Shown here in pieces: positions 2 through 50,128 of a DNA stretch of 64,000 nucleotides; positions within the stretch are counted from its first letter, which is position 1, and each line of letters opens with the position of its first letter. The translations under genes were made by a program, and so were the position numbers. The DNA is taken from the NCBI RefSeq assembly GCF_014982715.1, contig NZ_JADCJY010000002.1:186001-250000 (forward strand), read 5' to 3'. The notes under the pieces were generated by a model. It saw only the letters and a list, made by a program, of their open reading frames with translations, had not been told where the DNA came from and ran no database searches. The stretch comes from Gallalistipes aquisgranensis (GTDB lineage: Bacteria > Bacteroidota > Bacteroidia > Bacteroidales > Rikenellaceae).

Positions 2-679
2 AGAGCCCTATTCCGCTATCTGCGCAAAACGGGAGCCGTCCGGCACGATCCGTTCCTGAAGATCGGACAGATGAAAACCCCGAAACCGCTGCCGGTTTTC
101 ATCGCAGAAAGCCGGATGGAACAGGTACTGCGGCAATCCCCGGAGCATCCCGACGATTTCGACACCCTCCGCAACCGTCTGATCGTACTGTTTTTCTACA
201 CGACCGGTCTGCGTCTGGCAGAGCTCGTCGCCATCGATACCGACGACTTCTCGCCCGGTTTTCGTGAACTGAAAGTCCGGGGCAAGGGCGACAAGGAGCG
301 GATCGTACCGATCATGCCGCAGGTACGGGAACGTATTTCGGAGTATCTCGATGAAATTATGCGGCAAAACATTTGCATTACCGGAGGAAAATCCCTATTT
401 TTAACCAAGCAAGGGAGACGCATCAGCCGCAGCACGGTGTACCGGATCGTCCGCGCGGAACTGGCGGCGGCGGGTGTACAGGGCAAGCGCAGTCCGCACG
501 TACTGCGGCATACGTTTGCCACCCACCTGCTCGACGGAGGAGCCGACATGCGGGAAATCCAGCAGCTGCTGGGGCACAGTTCCCTTCGGGCGACGCAGGT
601 GTACACGCACAACAGCATCGCCCGACTGAAAGAGACATACAACACCGCCCATCCGAGGGCGTCACATAAAAAAGATTAA
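2..679 (+). CDS. Tyrosine recombinase, XerC/XerD type (5' end outside window)
   Basis: Site-specific tyrosine recombinase of the kind that resolves chromosome dimers. The reading frame is open from base 2, so the N-terminal SAM-like DNA-binding domain is cut by the window edge; 225 residues are visible. Catalytic elements are in place: the Arg in TTGLRLAEL, a Lys in the VRGKGDKER turn, the HVLRH box (His-x-x-Arg), LLGH, and the nucleophile Tyr in QVYTH. The gene stands directly before hpf with 13 bases between them, an arrangement usual in Bacteroidales, which argues for a housekeeping Xer protein rather than a phage or transposon integrase. XerC and XerD cannot be told apart from this fragment. 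Confidence 0.9.
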   Translation, partial: RALFRYLRKTGAVRHDPFLKIGQMKTPKPLPVFIAESRMEQVLRQSPEHPDDFDTLRNRLIVLFFYTTGLRLAELVAIDTDDFSPGFRELKVRGKGDKERIVPIMPQVRERISEYLDEIMRQNICITGGKSLFLTKQGRRISRSTVYRIVRAELAAAGVQGKRSPHVLRHTFATHLLDGGADMREIQQLLGHSSLRATQVYTHNSIARLKETYNTAHPRASHKKD

Positions 680-9426: not shown

Positions 9427-12400
9427 ATGTCCCAAAAAGCGAATAATCAAAGAATTAACTTCTCTTCAGTAAAAAACAGGATGCACTATCCTGATTTCCT
9501 GGAGATACAGTTGAAATCATTTCAAGATTTTTTCCAGTTAGACACCACCGCCGAAAACCGCAAGAACGAAGGCCTCTACAAGGTGTTCATGGAAAATTTC
9601 CCCATTACCGATACACGGAACAATTTCGTTCTGGAATTTATAGATTATTACATCGATCCGCCCCGTTACTCGATCGAAGAGTGTCTGGAACGCGGACTCA
9701 CCTATAGCGTACCACTGAAAGCCAAACTCAAGCTCTACTGTACGGATTCGGAGCACGAGGATTTCGACACCGTGGTGCAGGACGTCTATTTCGGGACGAT
9801 TCCCTACATGACTCCCCGCGGAACCTTCGTCATCAACGGAGCGGAACGCGTGATCGTATCCCAGCTACACCGCTCGCCCGGCGTATTTTTCGGACAGAGC
9901 ATGCACACCAACGGAACGAAACTCTATTCGGCCCGTATCATTCCGTTCAAAGGCTCCTGGATCGAATTCGCCACGGACATCAATAACGTGATGTACGCCT
10001 ATATCGACCGGAAAAAGAAACTGCCGGTAACCACTCTCCTCCGTGCCATCTGTTTCGAGAGCGACCGTCAGATTCTGGAGATATTCGACCTGGCCGATGA
10101 AGTGAAGGTGAGCAAATCCACCCTGAAAAAGGCGGTTGGCAGAAAACTCGCCGCACGTGTCCTGAAAACGTGGGTGGAGGATTTCGTGGACGAGGACACC
10201 GGCGAAGTGGTATCCATCGAACGTAATGAAGTGATTATCGACCGCGAGACCGAACTCACGGAAGAGCATATCGACGACATCATCGAGAGCGGCGCCAAAA
10301 GTATTCTCCTGCATAAGGACAACCAGAGCGGCGTCGATTACTCCATCGTATACAATACCCTGCAGAAAGACCCCTGCAACTCGGAAAAAGAGGCCGTGGT
10401 ATATATCTACCGCCAGCTGCGCAACTCCGAGCCGCCCGACGAGGCCACAGCCCGCGACGTGATCGAGAAGCTGTTCTTCTCGGACAAGCGGTATGACCTG
10501 GGCGACGTGGGCCGTTTCCGCATCAACAAGAAACTGGGGTTGGACATCGACCCTTCGGTGCGGATTCTGACCAAGGAGGATATCATCGCAATCATCAAGT
10601 ACCTGATTTCGCTGATCAACTCCAAGACCGACGTGGACGACATCGACCACCTGAGCAACCGCCGTGTCCGCACGGTGGGCGAACAGTTGTCGAACCAGTT
10701 CAGCGTGGGCTTCGTCCGCATGGCCCGCACTATCCGCGAGCGGATGAACGTGCGTGACAACGAGGTCTTCACCCCGGTAGATCTGATCAACGCCAAGACG
10801 CTTTCGAGCGTCATCAACTCGTTCTTCGGGACCAACCAGCTTTCGCAGTTCATGGACCAGACCAACCCGCTGGCCGAAATGACGCACAAACGCCGTCTGT
10901 CGGCTCTGGGTCCCGGCGGTCTTTCGCGCGAACGGGCCGGTTTCGAGGTGCGGGACGTACACTATACCCATTACGGCCGTCTCTGCCCGATCGAGACTCC
11001 CGAAGGTCCGAACATCGGTCTGATCTCTTCGCTCTGCGTCTTTGCGAAAGTGAGCGACATGGGATTCATCGAAACGCCCTACCGGAAAGTGACGGAGGGG
11101 AAAGTGGACCTGACGGACAAAGGCATCTCCTACCTGAGCGCCGAAGAGGAGGAGGGACTGATCATCGCACAGGCCAACGCGCCGCTGGATGACGAGGGCC
11201 ATTTCCTCGAACCGGACCGCATCAAGGCCCGGTCGGAAGGAGACTTCCCCGTGGTAACGGACAAGGAGGTGAACCTGATGGACGTGGCACCGAATCAGAT
11301 CGCTTCGATCGCCGCCAGTCTGATCCCCTTCCTCGAACACGACGACGCCAACCGGGCCCTGATGGGATCGAACATGATGCGTCAGGCCGTGCCCCTGATC
11401 ACGTGCGAAGCACCGATCGTGGGAACCGGTCTGGAAAAGGATATGATCAGCGACAGCCGGATTCAGATCGTGGCCGAACGCGACGGCGAAGTGGTATTCG
11501 CCGACGCAAGCGAAATCCATGTCAAATACGAACGGACTCCGGACGAAATTCTGGTGAGCTTCGATCCGGAAGTGACGGTTTACAAGTTGCCGCGTTACCG
11601 CAAGACCAACCAGAACACCTCCGTGACGCTGAAGCCCATCGTCATGACGGGCGACAAAGTGGTCAAGGGACAGATCATGACCGAAGGCTATTCGACCCAG
11701 AACGGGGAACTGGCCATCGGCCGCAACCTGAAGGTGGCCTTCATGCCCTGGAAAGGATACAACTTCGAGGATGCCATCGTGATCTCGGAGCGCATCGTAC
11801 GCGAGGATATTTTCACCTCGGTACATGTGGACGAATACATCATGGAGGTGCGCGACACCAAACGCGGTGTGGAAGAGCTCACTTCGGACATTCCCAACGT
11901 GAGCGAAGACGCCACGAAGGATCTGGACGAGAATGGTATCATCCGCATCGGAGCCAACGTCAAACCGGGCGACATCCTGATCGGCAAGATCACGCCGAAG
12001 GGAGAGAGCGATCCTTCGCCCGAGGAGAAACTGCTCCGGGCCATTTTCGGCGACAAGGCGGGCGACGTGAAGGACGCTTCGCTGAAAGCGCAGCCGTCGC
12101 TCTACGGCGTGGTGATCGACAAGAAACTGTTCAGCCGTGCCAATAAGGACTCGAAGAAAGGCAAGCAGGCCGAAAAGGCCCAGCTGGAGAAGCTGGATGC
12201 CCAGTTCGTCGCCGACACGACCCAGCTCAAGGACCGTCTGGTCGAGAAACTGTGGACGCTGCTCAAGGACAAGACGACCGTCGGCATCAAGGACTACTTC
12301 GGCGTGGAGCTGGTACCGAAAGGAGCCAAGTTCACCCAGAAGATGCTCGCCGACATCGACTACATGAACCTCAGCACCGAGAAGTGGACGGGAGACGCGC

Positions 12401-13245
12401 ACACCGACATGCTCATCGAGCAGGCCGTGAACAACTACACGATCAAATTCAAGGAGTTCGACGCGCACGTCAAACGTGAAAAATACAACATCACCAACGG
12501 GGACGAACTTCCGGCAGGCATCATCCAGCTGGCCAAGGTCTACATCGCCAAGAAGCGCAAGCTGAAAGTGGGTGACAAGATGGCCGGCCGCCACGGTAAC
12601 AAAGGTATCGTGGCCAAGATCGTCCGGGATGAGGACATGCCGTTCCTCGAAGACGGAACGATCGTGGACATCGTGCTGAACCCGCTGGGCGTACCTTCGC
12701 GTATGAACCTGGGACAGATTTACGAAACCGTGCTCGGATGGGCCGGCAAGGAATTGGGTCTGAAGTTCGCCACCCCGATTTTCGACGGTGCCACGCTGGA
12801 CGAGATCAACGAATACACGGCCAAGGCGGGCGTACCGCGCAGCGGCCGCACCTACCTCTACGACGGCGGCACGGGCGAAATGTTCGACCAGCCGGCTACG
12901 GTGGGCGTGATCTACATGCTGAAACTGGGCCACATGATCGACGACAAGATGCACGCCCGTTCGATCGGTCCCTACTCGCTCATCACGCAGCAGCCTCTGG
13001 GCGGTAAGGCCCAGTTCGGAGGCCAGCGTTTCGGAGAGATGGAGGTGTGGGCGCTGGAAGCCTTCGGCGCCGCCAACATCCTGCAGGAGATCCTGACCAT
13101 CAAGTCCGACGACGTGATGGGACGCGCCAAGGCGTATGAGGCGATCGTCAAGGGAGACAACCTTCCCACGCCGGGCATTCCCGAGTCGCTCAACGTGCTG
13201 CTGCACGAACTGCGGGGTCTGGCCATCAGCGTGAAGTTGGACTAA
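9427..13245 (+). CDS. rpoB: RNA polymerase beta subunit
   Basis: 1272 residues, the usual Bacteroidota length. Hallmarks include the rifampicin-region block [25 protein letters not shown], then [21 protein letters not shown], the [13 protein letters not shown] box, [10 protein letters not shown] near the active centre, and the C-terminal [24 protein letters not shown]. At the rifampicin site the usual drug-contact residues (Gln, Asp, His, Arg, Ser) are all present, so no resistance substitution is visible. The ATG at 9427 is preceded by GGATACG rather than a good Shine-Dalgarno. Confidence 0.98.
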
Positions 13246-42479: not shown

Positions 42480-44780
42480 CTACTTTTTGGATGTCTCGAT
42501 GATCCGGCGGCACTCCTCGAGCGACAGCTCGGCCGGAACCGCACCTTTGGGAATCCGGTAGTTCTTTCCCTTGTAGGCGATATACGGTCCGTAACGGCCG
42601 TTGAGCACCTGCAGATCGGGCTCCTCGGAGAAGGTCCGGATCGGGGTCTTCGCCGAAGCGTCCTTGTTCTTCTTCTCCTCGATCAGCTGTACGGCCCTCT
42701 CCAGCGTAATAGTATAAGGATCGTCCGTCCTGGCCAGCGAAGTAAATTTACCGTCGTAACGGACATAGGGACCGAACTTGCCGATACCGATCACCACGTC
42801 CTTTCCGTCGATCTGACCCGCCACTCGGGGCAGAGAGAAGAGTTCGAGCGCCTCCTCGAGCGTGATGGACGCAATCAACTGACCCTTTTTCAGGCTGGCA
42901 TACCGGGGTTTTTCACCCTCCTCGTTTCCGCCGATCTGCACCATCGGACCATAACGGCCGATACGGGCCGACACCTCCTTGCCTGTCGCGGGATCGACGC
43001 CCAGCACGCGCACCGGGTGCGTATGCTGGGGAACGGCCCCCATCGCCTCCTCGACCGTGGCATGGAACGAGTCGTAGAACGAACGGATCATCTCCTGCCA
43101 TCCCTTCTTGCCCTCGGCGATCTCGTCGAACTCCTTCTCCACGCTGGCCGTGAAATTATAATCCAGAATCGCCTTGAACTGCGCCTCCAGATAATCGTTC
43201 ACCAGCATGCCTATATCGGTAGGAGCCAGACGCCCCTTCTCCCGGCCGACATTTTCGGTACCCGTCTTCTCGGTGATCTTTCCCTTTTCCAGTTTCAACT
43301 GAAGATACTCGCGCTTGACACCCTCGCGGTTCTGTTTGACCACATAACCGCGATTGATGATCGTCGTAATGGTCGGGGCATAAGTCGAAGGCCGGCCGAT
43401 CCCCAACTCCTCCAGACGCTTGACGAGGGAGGCCTCGCTGTATCTCGGAGGCGACTGGGTGAAACGCTGCGTCGCGGTGACATTCACATCCGTCAGGGCA
43501 TCGCCCACGGCCATACGCGGAAGCACGCCCTCGGCCGACTGTTCCCCTTCGTCGTCCACCCCTTCGGAGTAGAGCCTCAGGAAACCGTCGAAACGGATCA
43601 CCTCGCCCGTAGCCACGAACAACTCTTTCGCACCGCTGACGTCGATCGTCACCGTCGTCCGGTCGATCCGGGCAGCGGCCATCTGCGAAGCGACCGTCCG
43701 TTTCCAGATCAGTTCATAGAGCCTTTTTTCAGCGGGCGACCCGTCGATCTCGGTTTTATTGATATAAGTGGGGCGAATCGCCTCGTGAGCCTCCTGCGCA
43801 CCTTTGGTTTTGGTCTTGAAATTACGGGGTTCGGAATATTTTTCGCCGAACAGTTTGGTGATCTCCTCCTTCGAGGCGGCGATGGCCTGGGCGGCCAGAT
43901 TCACCGAGTCGGTACGCATGTAGGTAATCGAACCCTGCTCGTAGAGTTTCTGTGCCACGGACATGGTTTGGGAAACCGACATACCCAACTTGCGGGCGGC
44001 CTCCTGCTGGAGGGTCGAGGTGGTGAAGGGAGGGGCCGGCGATTTCACGGCCGGTTTCTGCTCGCTTTTCACCACGGAAAACGAGGCTCCGTCGCATTTT
44101 TCGAGAAAAGCCCGGGCCTCTTCCAGCGTATCGAAACGCCGGTTCAGCTCGGCACGGAACAGCGTCTTGTCCGGATCGGAAGTGACGTAAAACTGGGCCA
44201 CCACCCTGAAATAAGGAGTCGGTACGAAACCTATGATCTCCCGTTCGCGCTCCACCAGCAGACGCACGGCCACGCTCTGCACACGCCCGGCCGACAGGGA
44301 AGGCTTTACCTTTTTCCATAACACGGGCGAAAGTTCGAACCCGACGAGCCGGTCGAGAATCCGGCGGGCCTGCTGGGCGTTGACCAGATTCATGTTCACG
44401 GTACGGGGCTTTTCGATGGCAGCCAGAATGGCCGGTTTGGTGATCTCGTGGAATACGATCCGGCGGGTCTCCTCCACCGGCAGCCCCAACACCTGCGTCA
44501 GATGCCAGGCAATAGCCTCCCCTTCGCGGTCTTCATCGGAGGCGAGCCACACCCGTTTGGCGCTTTTGGCCAGTTTGGAAAGCTCGGCCACCACCTTTTT
44601 CTTGTCGTCCGAAATTTCGTAGGTCGGAGCGAAACCGTGCGGAATGTCGATTCCCAGATCCTTCTTGGCCAGATCGCGGATATGCCCGAAACTGGACTTA
44701 ACCGTATATTCCTTACCGAGAAACTTTTCGATGGTCTTGGCTTTGGCCGGCGACTCAACGATCACTAAATTTTCCGTCAT
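42480..44780 (-). CDS. topA: DNA topoisomerase I (type IA)
   Basis: 766 residues. The Toprim domain begins LVIVESPAKAKTIEKFLG with the acidic DEDREGEAIAWHL motif; the active-site Tyr is in GSITYMRTDS; LSAGRVQSVAVRLLVERE is conserved. The C-terminal third carries three Toprim_C repeats (IGRYGPMVQIG, IGKFGPYVRYDG, NGRYGPYIAYKG) instead of tetra-cysteine zinc ribbons, as usual in Bacteroidota. It relaxes negative supercoils. It follows the DUF4270 gene after a terminator-like hairpin. Confidence 0.97.
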   Translation of the reverse strand: MTENLVIVESPAKAKTIEKFLGKEYTVKSSFGHIRDLAKKDLGIDIPHGFAPTYEISDDKKKVVAELSKLAKSAKRVWLASDEDREGEAIAWHLTQVLGLPVEETRRIVFHEITKPAILAAIEKPRTVNMNLVNAQQARRILDRLVGFELSPVLWKKVKPSLSAGRVQSVAVRLLVEREREIIGFVPTPYFRVVAQFYVTSDPDKTLFRAELNRRFDTLEEARAFLEKCDGASFSVVKSEQKPAVKSPAPPFTTSTLQQEAARKLGMSVSQTMSVAQKLYEQGSITYMRTDSVNLAAQAIAASKEEITKLFGEKYSEPRNFKTKTKGAQEAHEAIRPTYINKTEIDGSPAEKRLYELIWKRTVASQMAAARIDRTTVTIDVSGAKELFVATGEVIRFDGFLRLYSEGVDDEGEQSAEGVLPRMAVGDALTDVNVTATQRFTQSPPRYSEASLVKRLEELGIGRPSTYAPTITTIINRGYVVKQNREGVKREYLQLKLEKGKITEKTGTENVGREKGRLAPTDIGMLVNDYLEAQFKAILDYNFTASVEKEFDEIAEGKKGWQEMIRSFYDSFHATVEEAMGAVPQHTHPVRVLGVDPATGKEVSARIGRYGPMVQIGGNEEGEKPRYASLKKGQLIASITLEEALELFSLPRVAGQIDGKDVVIGIGKFGPYVRYDGKFTSLARTDDPYTITLERAVQLIEEKKNKDASAKTPIRTFSEEPDLQVLNGRYGPYIAYKGKNYRIPKGAVPAELSLEECRRIIETSKK

Positions 44781-44796
44781 AAATCCCTTATTGCAT

Positions 44797-44831
44797 AAAA
44801 AGCGAAAACCTAAAGAAGTCTTTAGGTTCGC
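44797..44831 (-). terminator. Terminator between the DUF4270 gene and topA
   Basis: AACCTAAAG (44807-44815) pairs with CTTTAGGTT (44820-44828) around AAGT, with outer GCG/CGC pairs; read on the minus strand it is followed by CGCTTTTTA. Confidence 0.82.
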
Positions 44832-44838
44832 CTTTAAC

Positions 44839-46251
44839 TTATTTCATTAAAGTGTATGTCAGTATCAATTTCATCCTTCCCTCTCCCGTAGCGGGACTCC
44901 GCAGAGCCACTTGCCCGAAAGTGTAGGTCAGGGAGACGTCCGGCGTGAGATAAACCGTCTCCTGTTGGGCCGTGTGGCCCGGTTGCCAGCCGATCACCAT
45001 CTTCTGGATATAGTTGGTGATGTCCATCAGATAGTAGTAATTACTACGGTTCAGGTATCCGTCGTAGGCGAGCGTACCGCCCTGCTGCTGTTCGTACTGG
45101 TAATAGTAATCCGGGATCGGGTCCAGATCGGAATAGTTGAAGAACATGCCCAGGCGTGAAGGAGCCTTGTCCATCGACTCGGCCCAGGTCAGCGGCGGCT
45201 GAGGCTCATCCATCTCGACGATCAGGCGGGCCTGGTTGATCACCATGCTCGCATTCCGGTACTCCTCGCCGTGTTTGTCGCGCAGTGCTTCGATCTCGGA
45301 TTTCAATCGCTCGGAAAAACGCAGATAGGTCGTCACACCGGCCAACGTCTGCACGTAAGCCGTGGAGACCGGATTATCCGAAGGCAGCGTATCGTTCAGC
45401 AGAGTTTCGATCTCGGTTCCGGCATAATCGTGCAGAATCCGGGAGATGGACGTGTTGTACGAGTAGGTTCCGTCGTCGAAATAGTAACTGAGCGAAACGG
45501 TGCTGTCCTTGTCGGTCTCCGTATCCCGGAAATGGGTATACAGCGTCATGTAGGACTCTTCGAGCGTGATACTCGAAAGGGCCGCATCCGTCTCCGTATC
45601 GGCAGGGGCCGGTGCGATATAAAGTCCGTTGAACATGCTGAGGAAAGCGGTATCCGCTTCATAGACCGAAGCGGGAGCATCGGCCAGCCGCTGCATGAAA
45701 GCCCGGCCTTTCTCGCCGCTCTCTTCCGCCTTGAGCGTAATCAGGAAATGTTCACCGGCCTTGTGCGTAAAGGTAAACAGGGGCTCCTGGTCGATCACCT
45801 CTTCCGCCGGAAAATCGACGTAATAGGTGGAATCCATCGCAATCGGTTTGTTCACCTCGTAGATATTGTATGTCAGCGTCTTGGACGAATCGCCCGAATA
45901 ACTGCCCACATAGAGATTGAGCTGAATCGAATCGGCCTTCGGGCTCGGTCCGAACCGGTTTTCCGTATCGGTGAAGGCCCCGGGCACATACTGCATGAGG
46001 GCGCTGGCCGTAGTCTTGCCGTACGTGTCGGACAGAGTGTTGCCCAGAAAGGTAACCCCCAGATTGTTGGAGGGGATCTTATTGGTCTGGGTCAGATAGG
46101 CGTCTATGCTGTAAACGGTATCCACGGCAAAGGCGGGACGGAAACTGTCCGGCAGGAAATTCAGCCCCAGCGAATCGTCCACGGAGGTACACGCCGACAG
46201 CGAAACAGACAGTATCGCCGTTACGCACAGATATCTCGTTGTCCGCCTCAT
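44839..46251 (-). CDS. DUF4270 family surface lipoprotein
   Basis: 470 residues from ATG 46251. The N-terminus is a lipoprotein signal: MRRTTRYLCVTAILSVSLSACTS, lipobox LSAC. Family features follow: DDSLGLNFLPD at the start of the mature protein, then a long beta-rich region rich in Asp, Thr and Tyr, and LTYTLMK at the end. Function is unknown. Its start lies five bases after the stop of the glycogen-synthase-like gene (a start at 46272 would overlap that gene), so the pair is translationally linked. Longer in-frame starts would destroy the signal peptide. Confidence 0.85.
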   Translation of the reverse strand: MRRTTRYLCVTAILSVSLSACTSVDDSLGLNFLPDSFRPAFAVDTVYSIDAYLTQTNKIPSNNLGVTFLGNTLSDTYGKTTASALMQYVPGAFTDTENRFGPSPKADSIQLNLYVGSYSGDSSKTLTYNIYEVNKPIAMDSTYYVDFPAEEVIDQEPLFTFTHKAGEHFLITLKAEESGEKGRAFMQRLADAPASVYEADTAFLSMFNGLYIAPAPADTETDAALSSITLEESYMTLYTHFRDTETDKDSTVSLSYYFDDGTYSYNTSISRILHDYAGTEIETLLNDTLPSDNPVSTAYVQTLAGVTTYLRFSERLKSEIEALRDKHGEEYRNASMVINQARLIVEMDEPQPPLTWAESMDKAPSRLGMFFNYSDLDPIPDYYYQYEQQQGGTLAYDGYLNRSNYYYLMDITNYIQKMVIGWQPGHTAQQETVYLTPDVSLTYTFGQVALRSPATGEGRMKLILTYTLMK

Positions 46252-46255
46252 CGCA

Positions 46256-47065
46256 TCAAAACAATTCTTCATAAAATTTCTGATAATTATCAAGGTATTG
46301 TGCCGTCGATTTGTCCTGATACGGAAGCACGGGCTTTCCCGTTTTGCCGAGATATTCCATAACCGCGGGATCGGGATTGTGCGCTTCGATGACAACACCG
46401 TCTGCGTAATCAATAACGAACTTCATCAGGTTTTGGTATGAAGGCTGCGCGATTAATTCCAGTTTATCACTCTGGACACCTTCGTTTTGTATCTTGGTTC
46501 CAAAATTCTCGTCGAGCTGTCCCCCGAATCCGTCGTCGTAGAGCGAAACGACGATCTTCGCGTCGCGGAACAGGGGGTCGTCCACGAAAGCGCCCCGCAG
46601 GTAGAGGGGCACGATCGCCGAAAACCACCCGTGGCAATGGACCACATCGGGCTGCCAGCGCAACTTCTTCACGGTCTCGAGCACACCGCGCGCAAAGAAA
46701 ATAGCCCTTTCGTCGTTGTCCGGGAACCACGTCCCGTCGGCATCGGTCAGCACGGCCTTGCGGCTGAAGTAGTCGTCGTTGTCGATGAAATAGATCTGGA
46801 CCCGCGCGGCCGGAATCGAAGCCACCTTGATGATGAGCTGGTGGTCGTTGTCGTCGATGATCAGGTTCATCCCCGAAAGGCGGATCACCTCGTGCAACTG
46901 GTTGCGGCGTTCGTTGATACAGCCGTACCGCGGCATGAACGTCCGGATCTCGTAACCCCGTTCCTGCATGGCCTGCGACAGTGTCCGGCACAGCGAGGAC
47001 ATTTCGGTCTCCGGAAGATAGGGGGTGATCTCCTGGCAGACGTAAAGGATTCTGGTACTGCTCAT
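46256..47065 (-). CDS. Glycogen/starch-synthase-like protein, N-terminal GT5 domain only
   Basis: 269 residues resembling the first Rossmann domain of GT5 glycogen synthase: ILYVCQEITPYLPETEMSSL, DVVHCHGWFSAIVPLYLR, and a C-terminal helix pair. The usual KxGGL donor-binding motif is absent (the position reads ETEMSS) and the second GT-B domain is missing altogether, so normal ADP-glucose transfer is doubtful. No second-domain remnant is seen downstream; the DUF4270 lipoprotein gene starts at once. The same short form next to DUF4270 is, to my knowledge, usual in Bacteroidales, so this is a family rather than a broken gene. Confidence 0.85.
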   Translation of the reverse strand: MSSTRILYVCQEITPYLPETEMSSLCRTLSQAMQERGYEIRTFMPRYGCINERRNQLHEVIRLSGMNLIIDDNDHQLIIKVASIPAARVQIYFIDNDDYFSRKAVLTDADGTWFPDNDERAIFFARGVLETVKKLRWQPDVVHCHGWFSAIVPLYLRGAFVDDPLFRDAKIVVSLYDDGFGGQLDENFGTKIQNEGVQSDKLELIAQPSYQNLMKFVIDYADGVVIEAHNPDPAVMEYLGKTGKPVLPYQDKSTAQYLDNYQKFYEELF

Positions 47066-47100: not shown

Positions 47101-47132
47101 CAAAGGTACTAAAAAATTACCATTCCGACAAC
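47101..47132 (-). promoter_or_regulatory. Promoter of the glycogen-synthase-like/DUF4270 pair
   Basis: Minus-strand TACCTTTG (47108-47101) is an exact -7 box; GTTG (47132-47129) is 20 bases upstream with one mismatch to TTTG. Confidence 0.7.
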
Positions 47133-47167: not shown

Positions 47168-48217
47168 TCAGATTATCAACATGGCATCCCCGTAGGTTCC
47201 GAAGCGGTATTTCTCCTCTTTGGCCACCTTGTAGGCATTCATCACCGTGTCGTAGCCGCCGAAGGCGGCCACCATCATCAGCTGAGTGGAGTAGGGCAGA
47301 TGGAAATTACTGATCATCGAATCGGCCACGCTGAATTCGTAGGGACAAAAGATGAACTTGTTGGTCCAGCCTTCGTAAGGCTTGAGGAATCCTTCGGTCG
47401 AAACGGAACTTTCGATCGTCCGCATCACCGTGGTCCCCACGGCACAAACCCGGCGTCCCTTCTCCTTGGCATGATTGACGGTCTGCGCCGCATCCTCGGG
47501 AATGAAAATCTGCTCGGAGTCCATCTTATGCTTGGTCAGATCTTCGACATCCACCGTACGGAAATTGCCGAGCCCCACGTGCAGGGTGATTTCGGCCGTC
47601 TGAATTCCCTTGATCTCCATCCGTTTGAGCAGATGCTTGCTGAAATGGAGACCGGCCGTCGGGGCCGCCACGGCCCCCTCGTGTTTGGCGAAAATGGTCT
47701 GGTATCGTTCGTCGTCGATCGGTTCCACCTTTTCCCTCACCCATTTGGGCAGCGGCGTCTCACCCATCTTGTAGAGCGTGGCCTTGAACTCTTCATAACT
47801 GCCGTCGAACAGGAAGCGCAGCGTACGACCCCTCGACGTCGTATTGTCGATCACCTCGGCCACCAGCAGGTCGTCGTCCCCGAAATAGAGCTTGTTCCCG
47901 ATCCGAATCTTCCGGGCGGGATCCACCAGCACGTCCCACAGGCGCAGGTCGCGGTTCAGCTCACGGAGCAGGAAAATCTCGATTTCGGCGCCGGTCTTCT
48001 CCTTGTTGCCGTACAGACGGGCAGGAAAAACCTTGGTATTATTGAAAATAAAGACGTCGTTCTCATCGAAATAGTCGATCACATCCTTAAAAATCCGGTG
48101 TTCGATCTCCCCCGTGTCCCGGTGCACGATCATCAGGCGGGACTCGTCGCGGTTCTCGGTCGGATACTTGGCCAGCATATCCGGCGAAAAGGGGTAGTTG
48201 TACTGGGATAGCTTCAT
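47168..48217 (-). CDS. queA: tRNA preQ1(34) S-adenosylmethionine ribosyltransferase-isomerase
   Basis: 349 residues. Forms epoxyqueuosine at position 34 of tRNAs with GUN anticodons. Starts [19 protein letters not shown]; conserved [25 protein letters not shown] and the closing [30 protein letters not shown]. Length is normal. It lies 53 bases after truB, so two tRNA-modification genes are probably cotranscribed. Confidence 0.96.
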
Positions 48218-49042: not shown

Positions 49043-50128
49043 TCATTTCATATAAACGCGATGGACTCCCGACTTGGCGATATTACGGGCTACATCGAGA
49101 TACGCCGGCTTGCCGATCGTATAATATCCCAGGCAAAAAGCCGTAATACCCTCGCTGTAATTGAAACGCTTGGGACTTCCGTCCCGGTGAACATGCGTAC
49201 CGCCCACCCGGGTATCGCCCCGCGTATCGACATTTCCTTCCGAGTCCACGCGCCCGCTCACGTAATCGAGGGTCCGGCCTGCCATGTAAGCGATCCTGTC
49301 ACGCGTCTCCCTGTCAGGACAGACCAGACGGTAGCGCATGGCCATCATGGCTCCCGCATCCATGTAACTGGCATCCAGCCCGCCCAGCTCGGGACTCAGC
49401 CCGTCGGGCGTCATCAGATCCAGTCCTTCGCGGGAATAGGCCAGTGCGGCGTCCGACAGATATTCGTCTCCGGTCAGCCAGGCAATAGTCCCCAACGCCT
49501 CGCTGATGATATGCTTACGATGCGTATAAGGCTGATTGGTCTTTTTCCCTTCCCTGGCGATATCGGAATCGACCAGCCAATACCCGGTCTTGTGCAACCG
49601 GTCAAGATACCTATCTACTATATACTGATACTCGGGAAGTTCCGATTGCCGGATCAACAGCAATCCGCGCGCTACGGACCCGGCGAATATCTCGGTGCTG
49701 TGGAACGGATCGGCACATCCGGGAAAGCCCCCGTCTTCGCCCTGACGGGAGAAAGCCCAGTCCAACTCCCTGACCGCCCGATCGATCAACCCCTTATCGT
49801 CGCCATCCAACATCCGATGCACGATCCCTGCCTCAATCCGGTCCCCCGCGATACGCTGCTCCTCAATATACCAGCGATCACGTTCTCCCCGCTCGTATTT
49901 CAGATTGGCTCCGGCCGCTCCCGTCTCCGAAACGGGCTGAAAGCGATCCGGTACGAAAATCTCCTCCTGCAGAATCCGGCAATCGCACAGCACGTCCAAC
50001 AGCCGCACCGTGTCCGGGACAGGCACGGCAAGTGCCGTCTTTTTATCCGCAGAGACACAGGACAGGAATCCCGCTATCACCGACAGCAGCAAAACCGATT
50101 CCGCTCCTCTCCACAACACTCGTTTCAT
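49043..50128 (-). CDS. Unknown lipoprotein with a probable alpha/alpha-toroid fold
   Basis: 361 residues. The N-terminus is a lipoprotein signal (SVLLLSVIAGFLSC, lipobox FLSC). Motifs such as FSRQGEDGGFPG, SEALGTIAWLTGDEYLSDAALAY and LSPELGGLDASYMDAGA recall alpha/alpha-barrel glycosidases and polysaccharide lyases, whose helices pair in this way, but no known catalytic set was recognised. Lies between the ROK kinase and truB on the same strand. Carbohydrate processing is a guess based on fold and neighbour. Confidence 0.7.
   Translation of the reverse strand: MKRVLWRGAESVLLLSVIAGFLSCVSADKKTALAVPVPDTVRLLDVLCDCRILQEEIFVPDRFQPVSETGAAGANLKYERGERDRWYIEEQRIAGDRIEAGIVHRMLDGDDKGLIDRAVRELDWAFSRQGEDGGFPGCADPFHSTEIFAGSVARGLLLIRQSELPEYQYIVDRYLDRLHKTGYWLVDSDIAREGKKTNQPYTHRKHIISEALGTIAWLTGDEYLSDAALAYSREGLDLMTPDGLSPELGGLDASYMDAGAMMAMRYRLVCPDRETRDRIAYMAGRTLDYVSGRVDSEGNVDTRGDTRVGGTHVHRDGSPKRFNYSEGITAFCLGYYTIGKPAYLDVARNIAKSGVHRVYMK

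Follow-up and report, generated by a model that had tools for sequence, protein, structure and literature searches.

In the Bacteroidota, a gene annotated as 'glycogen synthase' encodes half of a GT5 enzyme (here the half GT5 protein) that has lost its catalytic parts, is retained throughout the phylum, shows low dN/dS and is kept without BamH, in some genomes also without detected Omp85, GlmS or intact SecY. There is close to an even chance that it is a near-universal housekeeping factor of this phylum, overlooked because of its name. Its non-catalytic role would have arisen in a full-length synthase of the FCB ancestor and catalysis would have decayed later, with the KxGGL loop lost in Chlorobi and the donor domain in Bacteroidia, leaving a remnant that survives in a 263-kb genome without secretion and outer-membrane machinery. 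Slightly more tentative is the function proposed, that of a domesticated pseudoenzyme that binds rather than transfers and serves a likely macromolecular partner in a core cytosolic process, the link to bamH reflecting a shared transcription unit and not an obligate complex. The copy analysed lies beside bamH in a 64,000-nucleotide stretch of Gallalistipes aquisgranensis DNA (the window), with these features:

46256 to 47065, minus strand: half GT5 protein, 269 aa, from PF08323 and a structural model; no signal peptide seen.
47000 to 47014, minus strand: PETEM at the KxGGL donor-loop position, codons 18-22 of the half GT5 gene, from the alignment.
46757 to 46945, minus strand: segment of residues 41-103 with ten invariant positions, from the alignment and the model.
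44839 to 46251, minus strand: bamH (DUF4270), a 470-aa lipoprotein, from PF14092, the fold and Cys21 with D25 and D26.

The half GT5 protein matches the starch synthase catalytic domain (PF08323) over residues 5-224, with 157.8 bits against a cut-off of 22.7. All 11 of its matches to NCBIfam GlgA models fall below their cut-offs, the top score being 163.2 bits against 754; TIGR02095 gives 112.2 bits (cut-off 328.45). The top NCBIfam match is PRK14098, a starch synthase model of Chlorobi origin. The best named match has 91% identity and comes from an uncultured Rikenellaceae MAG, followed by Alistipes at 72%. In GlgA the KxGGL donor loop and a catalytic His are functional elements. K.GGL is found in none of the 126 half proteins aligned; the commonest reading at this position is PETEM, as at residues 18-22 of the window protein. 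The columns of the C-domain motif (PCGLTQLY in E. coli) are empty in all 125 halves from the loci, and the catalytic His column (H161) holds Tyr in 100 of 126 halves and His in 7. The protein is presumably cytosolic, since no signal peptide is visible. Free-living genomes encode an acidic form (pI 4.88 for the window protein), and the high pI of the symbiont proteins may come from A+T bias alone.

The AlphaFold2 model of the protein has a mean pLDDT of 87.9, with low confidence at about residues 51-80; it was built from a shallow alignment of 49 sequences. Its closest structural matches are starch synthases, 6gne for example (range 23..513, Z 26.9, rmsd 2.6, 251 residues aligned). Because the model spans whole starch synthases from first to last residue, yet only about 250 residues align, the donor domain has been excised and the closing helix kept; the model thus describes a GT5 N-domain with the final GT-B helix, donor domain and KxGGL being gone. 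GT5 proteins and glycogen phosphorylases fill its table of structural matches (VIA-align), so folds of another type may also match. Compared with GlgA (GT5; E. coli GlgA, A. tumefaciens 1rzu, A. thaliana SSIV 6gne), the N-terminal GT-B domain, the final helix and PF08323 are shared, but the C-domain, KxGGL and, mostly, the catalytic His have been lost. Judged from these losses and the missed GlgA cut-offs, normal glycogen synthase function would be impossible. The original prediction of an N-terminal domain that lacks KxGGL and makes no glycogen agrees with this, the model adding the closing helix. It is very improbable that the protein is still an enzyme that uses another donor or teams up with a C-domain supplied by a second protein. 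In favour of this, the fold of the N-domain has been preserved, as have residues found in every GT5 protein; against it, there is no donor domain, KxGGL is missing in 126 of 126 halves and the catalytic His column is mostly Tyr.

What has been conserved lies elsewhere in the protein. The alignment comprised the 126 halves, 31 Chlorobi-type full-length proteins (L073, L179-L208), four other full-length proteins and eight non-FCB GT5 proteins, one of them partial. The loop motif K.GGL occurs in 0 of 126 halves, 0 of 31 Chlorobi-type proteins (RISxL in 31 of 31), 4 of 4 other full-length proteins (as KTGGL) and 5 of 8 non-FCB proteins. Ten positions (G48, R53, L57, H58, V60, R62, L63, K80, V81 and Q90) never vary among the 161 FCB proteins, 11 symbiont sequences included. 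Among the eight non-FCB GT5 proteins, which lack the LHEVIRL...K...Q segment, H58 and Q90 occur in none and the other eight positions are not conserved; P45, R120, H143 and W147 are common to GT5 N-domains generally. Because the segment has been kept with the loop intact, with the loop lost and with half of the protein gone, the alignment favours a function that is independent of catalysis and predates the truncation. Its low model confidence at about residues 51-80 could reflect a fold that depends on a partner, or just the shallow alignment of 49 sequences. The Chlorobi-type starch synthase (PRK14098) carries the same invariant segment and is likewise without KxGGL; unlike the half GT5 protein, it is full length (about 489 aa) and retains the His161 column. 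D116 is lost in 31 of 31 Chlorobi-type proteins and N117 in most; these full-length synthases, with RISxL and without D116, are probably impaired or dead enzymes. One of them (L073) has neighbours that, by eye, resemble bchL and bchB.

The second gene of the pair had been described as a surface lipoprotein of unknown function, a description that no longer fits: from sequence family, predicted fold and lipoprotein signal, its product is identified as BamH of the Bacteroidota BAM complex. It scores 147.2 bits against PF14092 (DUF4270; cut-off 27), is the sole DUF4270 copy in the window's genome and is matched by 9hjm_G, a chain of the P. gingivalis BAM complex, in a phmmer search (E 5.8e-08). 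Its structural model (pLDDT 84.9) retrieves three solved BamH chains at Foldseek ranks 1-3 (9n2d_C, 9his_G and 9hjm_G; prob 1.00, E 4.8e-23 to 8.1e-19), the fourth match dropping to prob 0.54. These chains, from F. johnsoniae (9n2d), B. thetaiotaomicron (Bt4306, 9his) and P. gingivalis (9hjm), correspond to the window lipoprotein in family, fold and lipoprotein signal, although identity in the structural alignments is 14-18%. The NCBIfam models BamH_fj (62.6 bits, E 2.7e-17, cut-off 420) and BamH_bt (19.7 bits, cut-off 670) stay below their cut-offs, which speaks against these two lineage-specific subfamilies rather than against BamH and fits a divergent family. The lipoprotein signal, C21-T-S-V-D-D-S, places the acidic residues D25 and D26 just past Cys21, which agrees with the acidic-residue rule for surface lipoproteins given in PMC12578637. 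BamH was described in 2025 as a surface lipoprotein of the Bacteroidota BAM complex (PMC12611786, PMC12578637), the B. thetaiotaomicron protein being Bt4306 (PMC12578637). The gap between the half GT5 stop and the lipoprotein frame measures four bases (46252-46255), not the five first given, if translation starts at MRRTTRYL; an in-frame ATG further upstream would make the two genes overlap.

The surroundings of the pair in the window are as follows:

47101 to 47108, minus strand: TACCTTTG, a consensus match to a -7-type promoter motif, 5' of half GT5.
44806 to 44829, minus strand: terminator-like hairpin 3' of the bamH stop, a consensus match.
47168 to 48217, minus strand: queA, the gene immediately 5' of half GT5, an arrangement seen in 10 of 120 loci.
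42480 to 44780, minus strand: topA (DNA topoisomerase I), downstream neighbour, from a profile match.

By its consensus TACCTTTG is presumably a Bacteroidota-type -7 motif. It sits 35 bases 5' of the half GT5 start and, together with the terminator-like hairpin after the lipoprotein stop, makes one promoter common to both genes plausible. The common promoter of the original prediction is sustained to that extent, both signals being consensus matches: the window holds 28 TANNTTTG motifs against 14.25 expected, about double, so that a lone -7 motif is weak evidence, and the region holds four terminator-like hairpins against 2.6 expected. Further upstream, positions 49043-50128 (minus strand) hold a lipoprotein-like reading frame of 361 aa that has no Pfam or NCBIfam match.

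Used as a query, the half protein found a match in 294 of 296 Bacteroidota genomes, a count that takes in the full-length forms of deep lineages. Within one large order it matched 355 of 395 genomes, among them 289 of the 297 that are at least 90% complete. Neighbours were counted by HMM and BLAST clustering over 120 loci, made up of 40 diverse ones (about one per family, from the rows of the Bacteroidota search) and the best 80 of 579 named matches, a narrow set that is nearly all Bacteroidales. The bamH gene is next on the same strand in 97 of the 120 loci (30 of 40 diverse, 67 of 80 named) and at most four genes away in 101 (34 of 40 and 67 of 80). Counted by HMM only and within 400 bases, it follows in 60 of the 78 named loci that have at least 700 bases downstream. 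The pair, expected to recur in Bacteroidales, is therefore far from unique to the window's genome and spans the phylum Bacteroidota. Divergent panC is found in 51 of 120 loci and downstream glmS in 44. An operon of half GT5, bamH and a BamG-like gene occurs in 15 of 120 loci, all among the 40 diverse ones (L055-L066, L068, L070, L075); one BamG-like representative scores 234.2 bits against NCBIfam BamG (E 2.7e-69), slightly below the cut-off of 250. A TPR protein is often encoded next to this operon (12 loci). Within the full-length lineages L054, L071 and L072, a HAD phosphatase or other gene separates the GT5 gene from that of a BamH-like or DNRLRE protein. Exceptions to the pairing are four loci with glmS directly after half GT5 (L087, L100, L109, L128) and eight with other genes in that place (L088, L092, L093, L094, L098, L121, L140, L146); the lipoproteins that directly follow in L141 and L143 have no Pfam or NCBIfam match.

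Reduced genomes of insect symbionts separate the half GT5 protein from its neighbours. Genomes of 0.3-0.6 Mb turned out to keep it in the search of the large order, and 14 symbiont genomes of one family were hand-chosen from the order list, 13 of this size and one (G578) of 1.3 Mb. Eleven of them carry an intact gene and two have none; the remaining one has a fragment interrupted by two stops. DUF4270 was found in none of the 14; GlmS exceeds its cut-off in 7, Omp85 is present in 9, PGK in 10, transketolase above the cut-off in 10, and SecY in all 14, in G582 merely as a piece with four stops. This last genome (263,431 bp) has an intact half GT5 protein of 242 aa despite its broken SecY, and BamH, Omp85 and GlmS were not found in it. 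The same size is listed for Uzinura diaspidicola in Table 1 of PMC3971599, along with 309,299 bp for Walczuchella, the size of G590; Table 2 of that paper has glgA kept by Uzinura and absent from Walczuchella, and Uzinura has 227 CDS (PMC3971599). A genome of 227 CDS without working Sec export thus retains the half GT5 protein. No GlmS above the cut-off was found in four genomes with an intact copy (G309, G582, G586 and G606), although G606 is merely 77% complete and absences there are weak. The half GT5 gene of G309 is kept with no PGK match and only a sub-cut-off transketolase match. The absence of Omp85 from G309 is doubtful because L168 holds a BamA-like open frame of 788 aa (10663-13029, minus strand), by a Skp-like gene in a 345-kb symbiont genome that gives no PF01103 match. 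The reverse case is seen in G496 and G511, with Omp85 present and half GT5 absent.

Three dependencies were considered against these genomes. An obligate partnership with BamH is rejected, DUF4270 being found in 0 of 14 symbionts while half GT5 is intact in 11; one with GlmS is rejected as well, GlmS exceeding the cut-off in just 7 of 14. A tie to central sugar metabolism is not upheld either: PGK and transketolase accompany half GT5 in most of the 14, but not in G309.

A dedicated cytosolic helper of BamH, acting as precursor chaperone or translational coupler and hence as part of outer-membrane assembly, is what the gene order would suggest, with bamH next in 97 of 120 loci, a four-base gap in the window and a BamG-like third gene in 15 loci. 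This reading is improbable, since the symbiont genomes contradict an obligate role, half GT5 being intact in 11 of 14 where DUF4270 is missing throughout, one of them without intact SecY, and since half GT5 lies away from bamH in some lineages (e.g., L088, L092, L093, L098, L109 and L128). The envelope or glycan assembly role first proposed is borne out in part: the partner is indeed an envelope-assembly protein, but half GT5 is not tied to envelope assembly, since reduced genomes keep it in the absence of DUF4270, some of them also with no detected Omp85, GlmS or working SecY.

The coding sequence itself is constrained. By the Nei-Gojobori method, dN/dS is 0.07-0.18 for L158 against six other genomes of Blattabacterium size and 0.21 to 0.46, still below 1, for pairs with L164 or L165 (345-kb and 263-kb genomes); most of the free-living pairs compared had reached saturation at synonymous sites. 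It is scarcely credible that the gene survives as a mere passenger of the operon genes around it. These are important genes in the case of bamH (PMC12611786, PMC12578637), but half GT5 outlives them in shrinking genomes with low dN/dS, which contradicts this reading.

A non-catalytic sensor of a sugar nucleotide or phospho-metabolite, tuning envelope precursors (GlmS, PanC) or BamH expression and reused later, is unlikely, though less so than the other alternatives. The GT5 fold is a nucleotide-sugar fold, the half GT5 protein has invariant positive residues, and glmS lies downstream in 44 of 120 loci, with panC divergent in 51; in L171 and L172, from the symbiont family, glmS directly follows half GT5 and bamH is gone. 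BT_4307 of B. thetaiotaomicron, which two screens with a vitamin B12 photoprobe captured (PMC8941943, Table 1), is probably the half GT5 ortholog, its locus number adjoining that of Bt4306, the BamH protein, and its annotation being the same; the likeness is one of position and name. This capture may hint at a ligand pocket, but many common enzymes are in the photoprobe list (PMC8941943). Against a sensor, four genomes (G309, G582, G586 and G606) keep an intact copy without GlmS above the cut-off, G309 also without a PGK match, and a genome of 227 CDS (PMC3971599) is unlikely to retain a protein that only regulates.

The pseudoenzyme reading would explain these observations as follows. The protein would be the N-half of an ancestral FCB-type starch synthase, stripped of the donor domain and the KxGGL loop and in most cases of the catalytic His, and would now work by binding and not by glycosyl transfer. 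The segment of residues 41-103, rich in Arg, His, Lys and Gln, would contact, with R120 and H143, a partner in a core cytosolic process. That partner would most likely be macromolecular, e.g., part of the machinery for translation/RNA or protein folding; a genome with 227 genes is less likely to keep a regulator than a component of such machinery, so a macromolecular partner is favoured with moderate confidence. The bond to bamH, glmS, panC and bamG would be an old common transcription unit that provides joint expression with no obligate complex. Several observations speak against this pseudoenzyme reading. An acidic pI such as that of the window protein (4.88) is not what general RNA binding would lead one to expect, and the lasting neighbourhood of bamH, bamG, glmS and panC fits an envelope role. 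Moreover, G496, G511 and G590 live without an intact copy, and the residues common to all GT5 N-domains mean that part of the conservation is that of the fold.

A paper on the function of the half GT5 protein was not found in the open-access literature, most subscription journals lying outside it, nor was one there that joins Blattabacterium and glycogen synthase. A term search for the word 'glycogen' in the main texts of two 2025 BAM papers (PMC12611786, PMC12578637) found no occurrence. BamH itself is known, and public genomes already show the pair and its half enzyme under the name 'glycogen synthase'. In PMC10797578 this label carries an argument: BT_4307, as the 'putative glycogen synthase' of B. 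thetaiotaomicron, is cited as a sign that this species may store glycogen. Among the P. gingivalis genes with signs of positive selection, PMC10394638 lists a 'glycogen synthase' orthogroup, which may be the half GT5 enzyme. A gene present in nearly all Bacteroidota examined and kept in some very small genomes offers a direct target for studies of the core machinery of a major gut phylum, and its link to bamH hands the new BAM field a conserved operon of half GT5, bamH and bamG or glmS.

Glycogen in the window's own genome can, from its gene content, be served by another cluster, in which a separate full-length GT stands beside GDE-like and GH57-like genes (the GDE and GH57 names were given by eye). 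Two other loci, L036 and L146, have half GT5 without adjoining bamH, and facing it on the opposite strand are GT and GH57-like genes that resemble those of this glycogen cluster.
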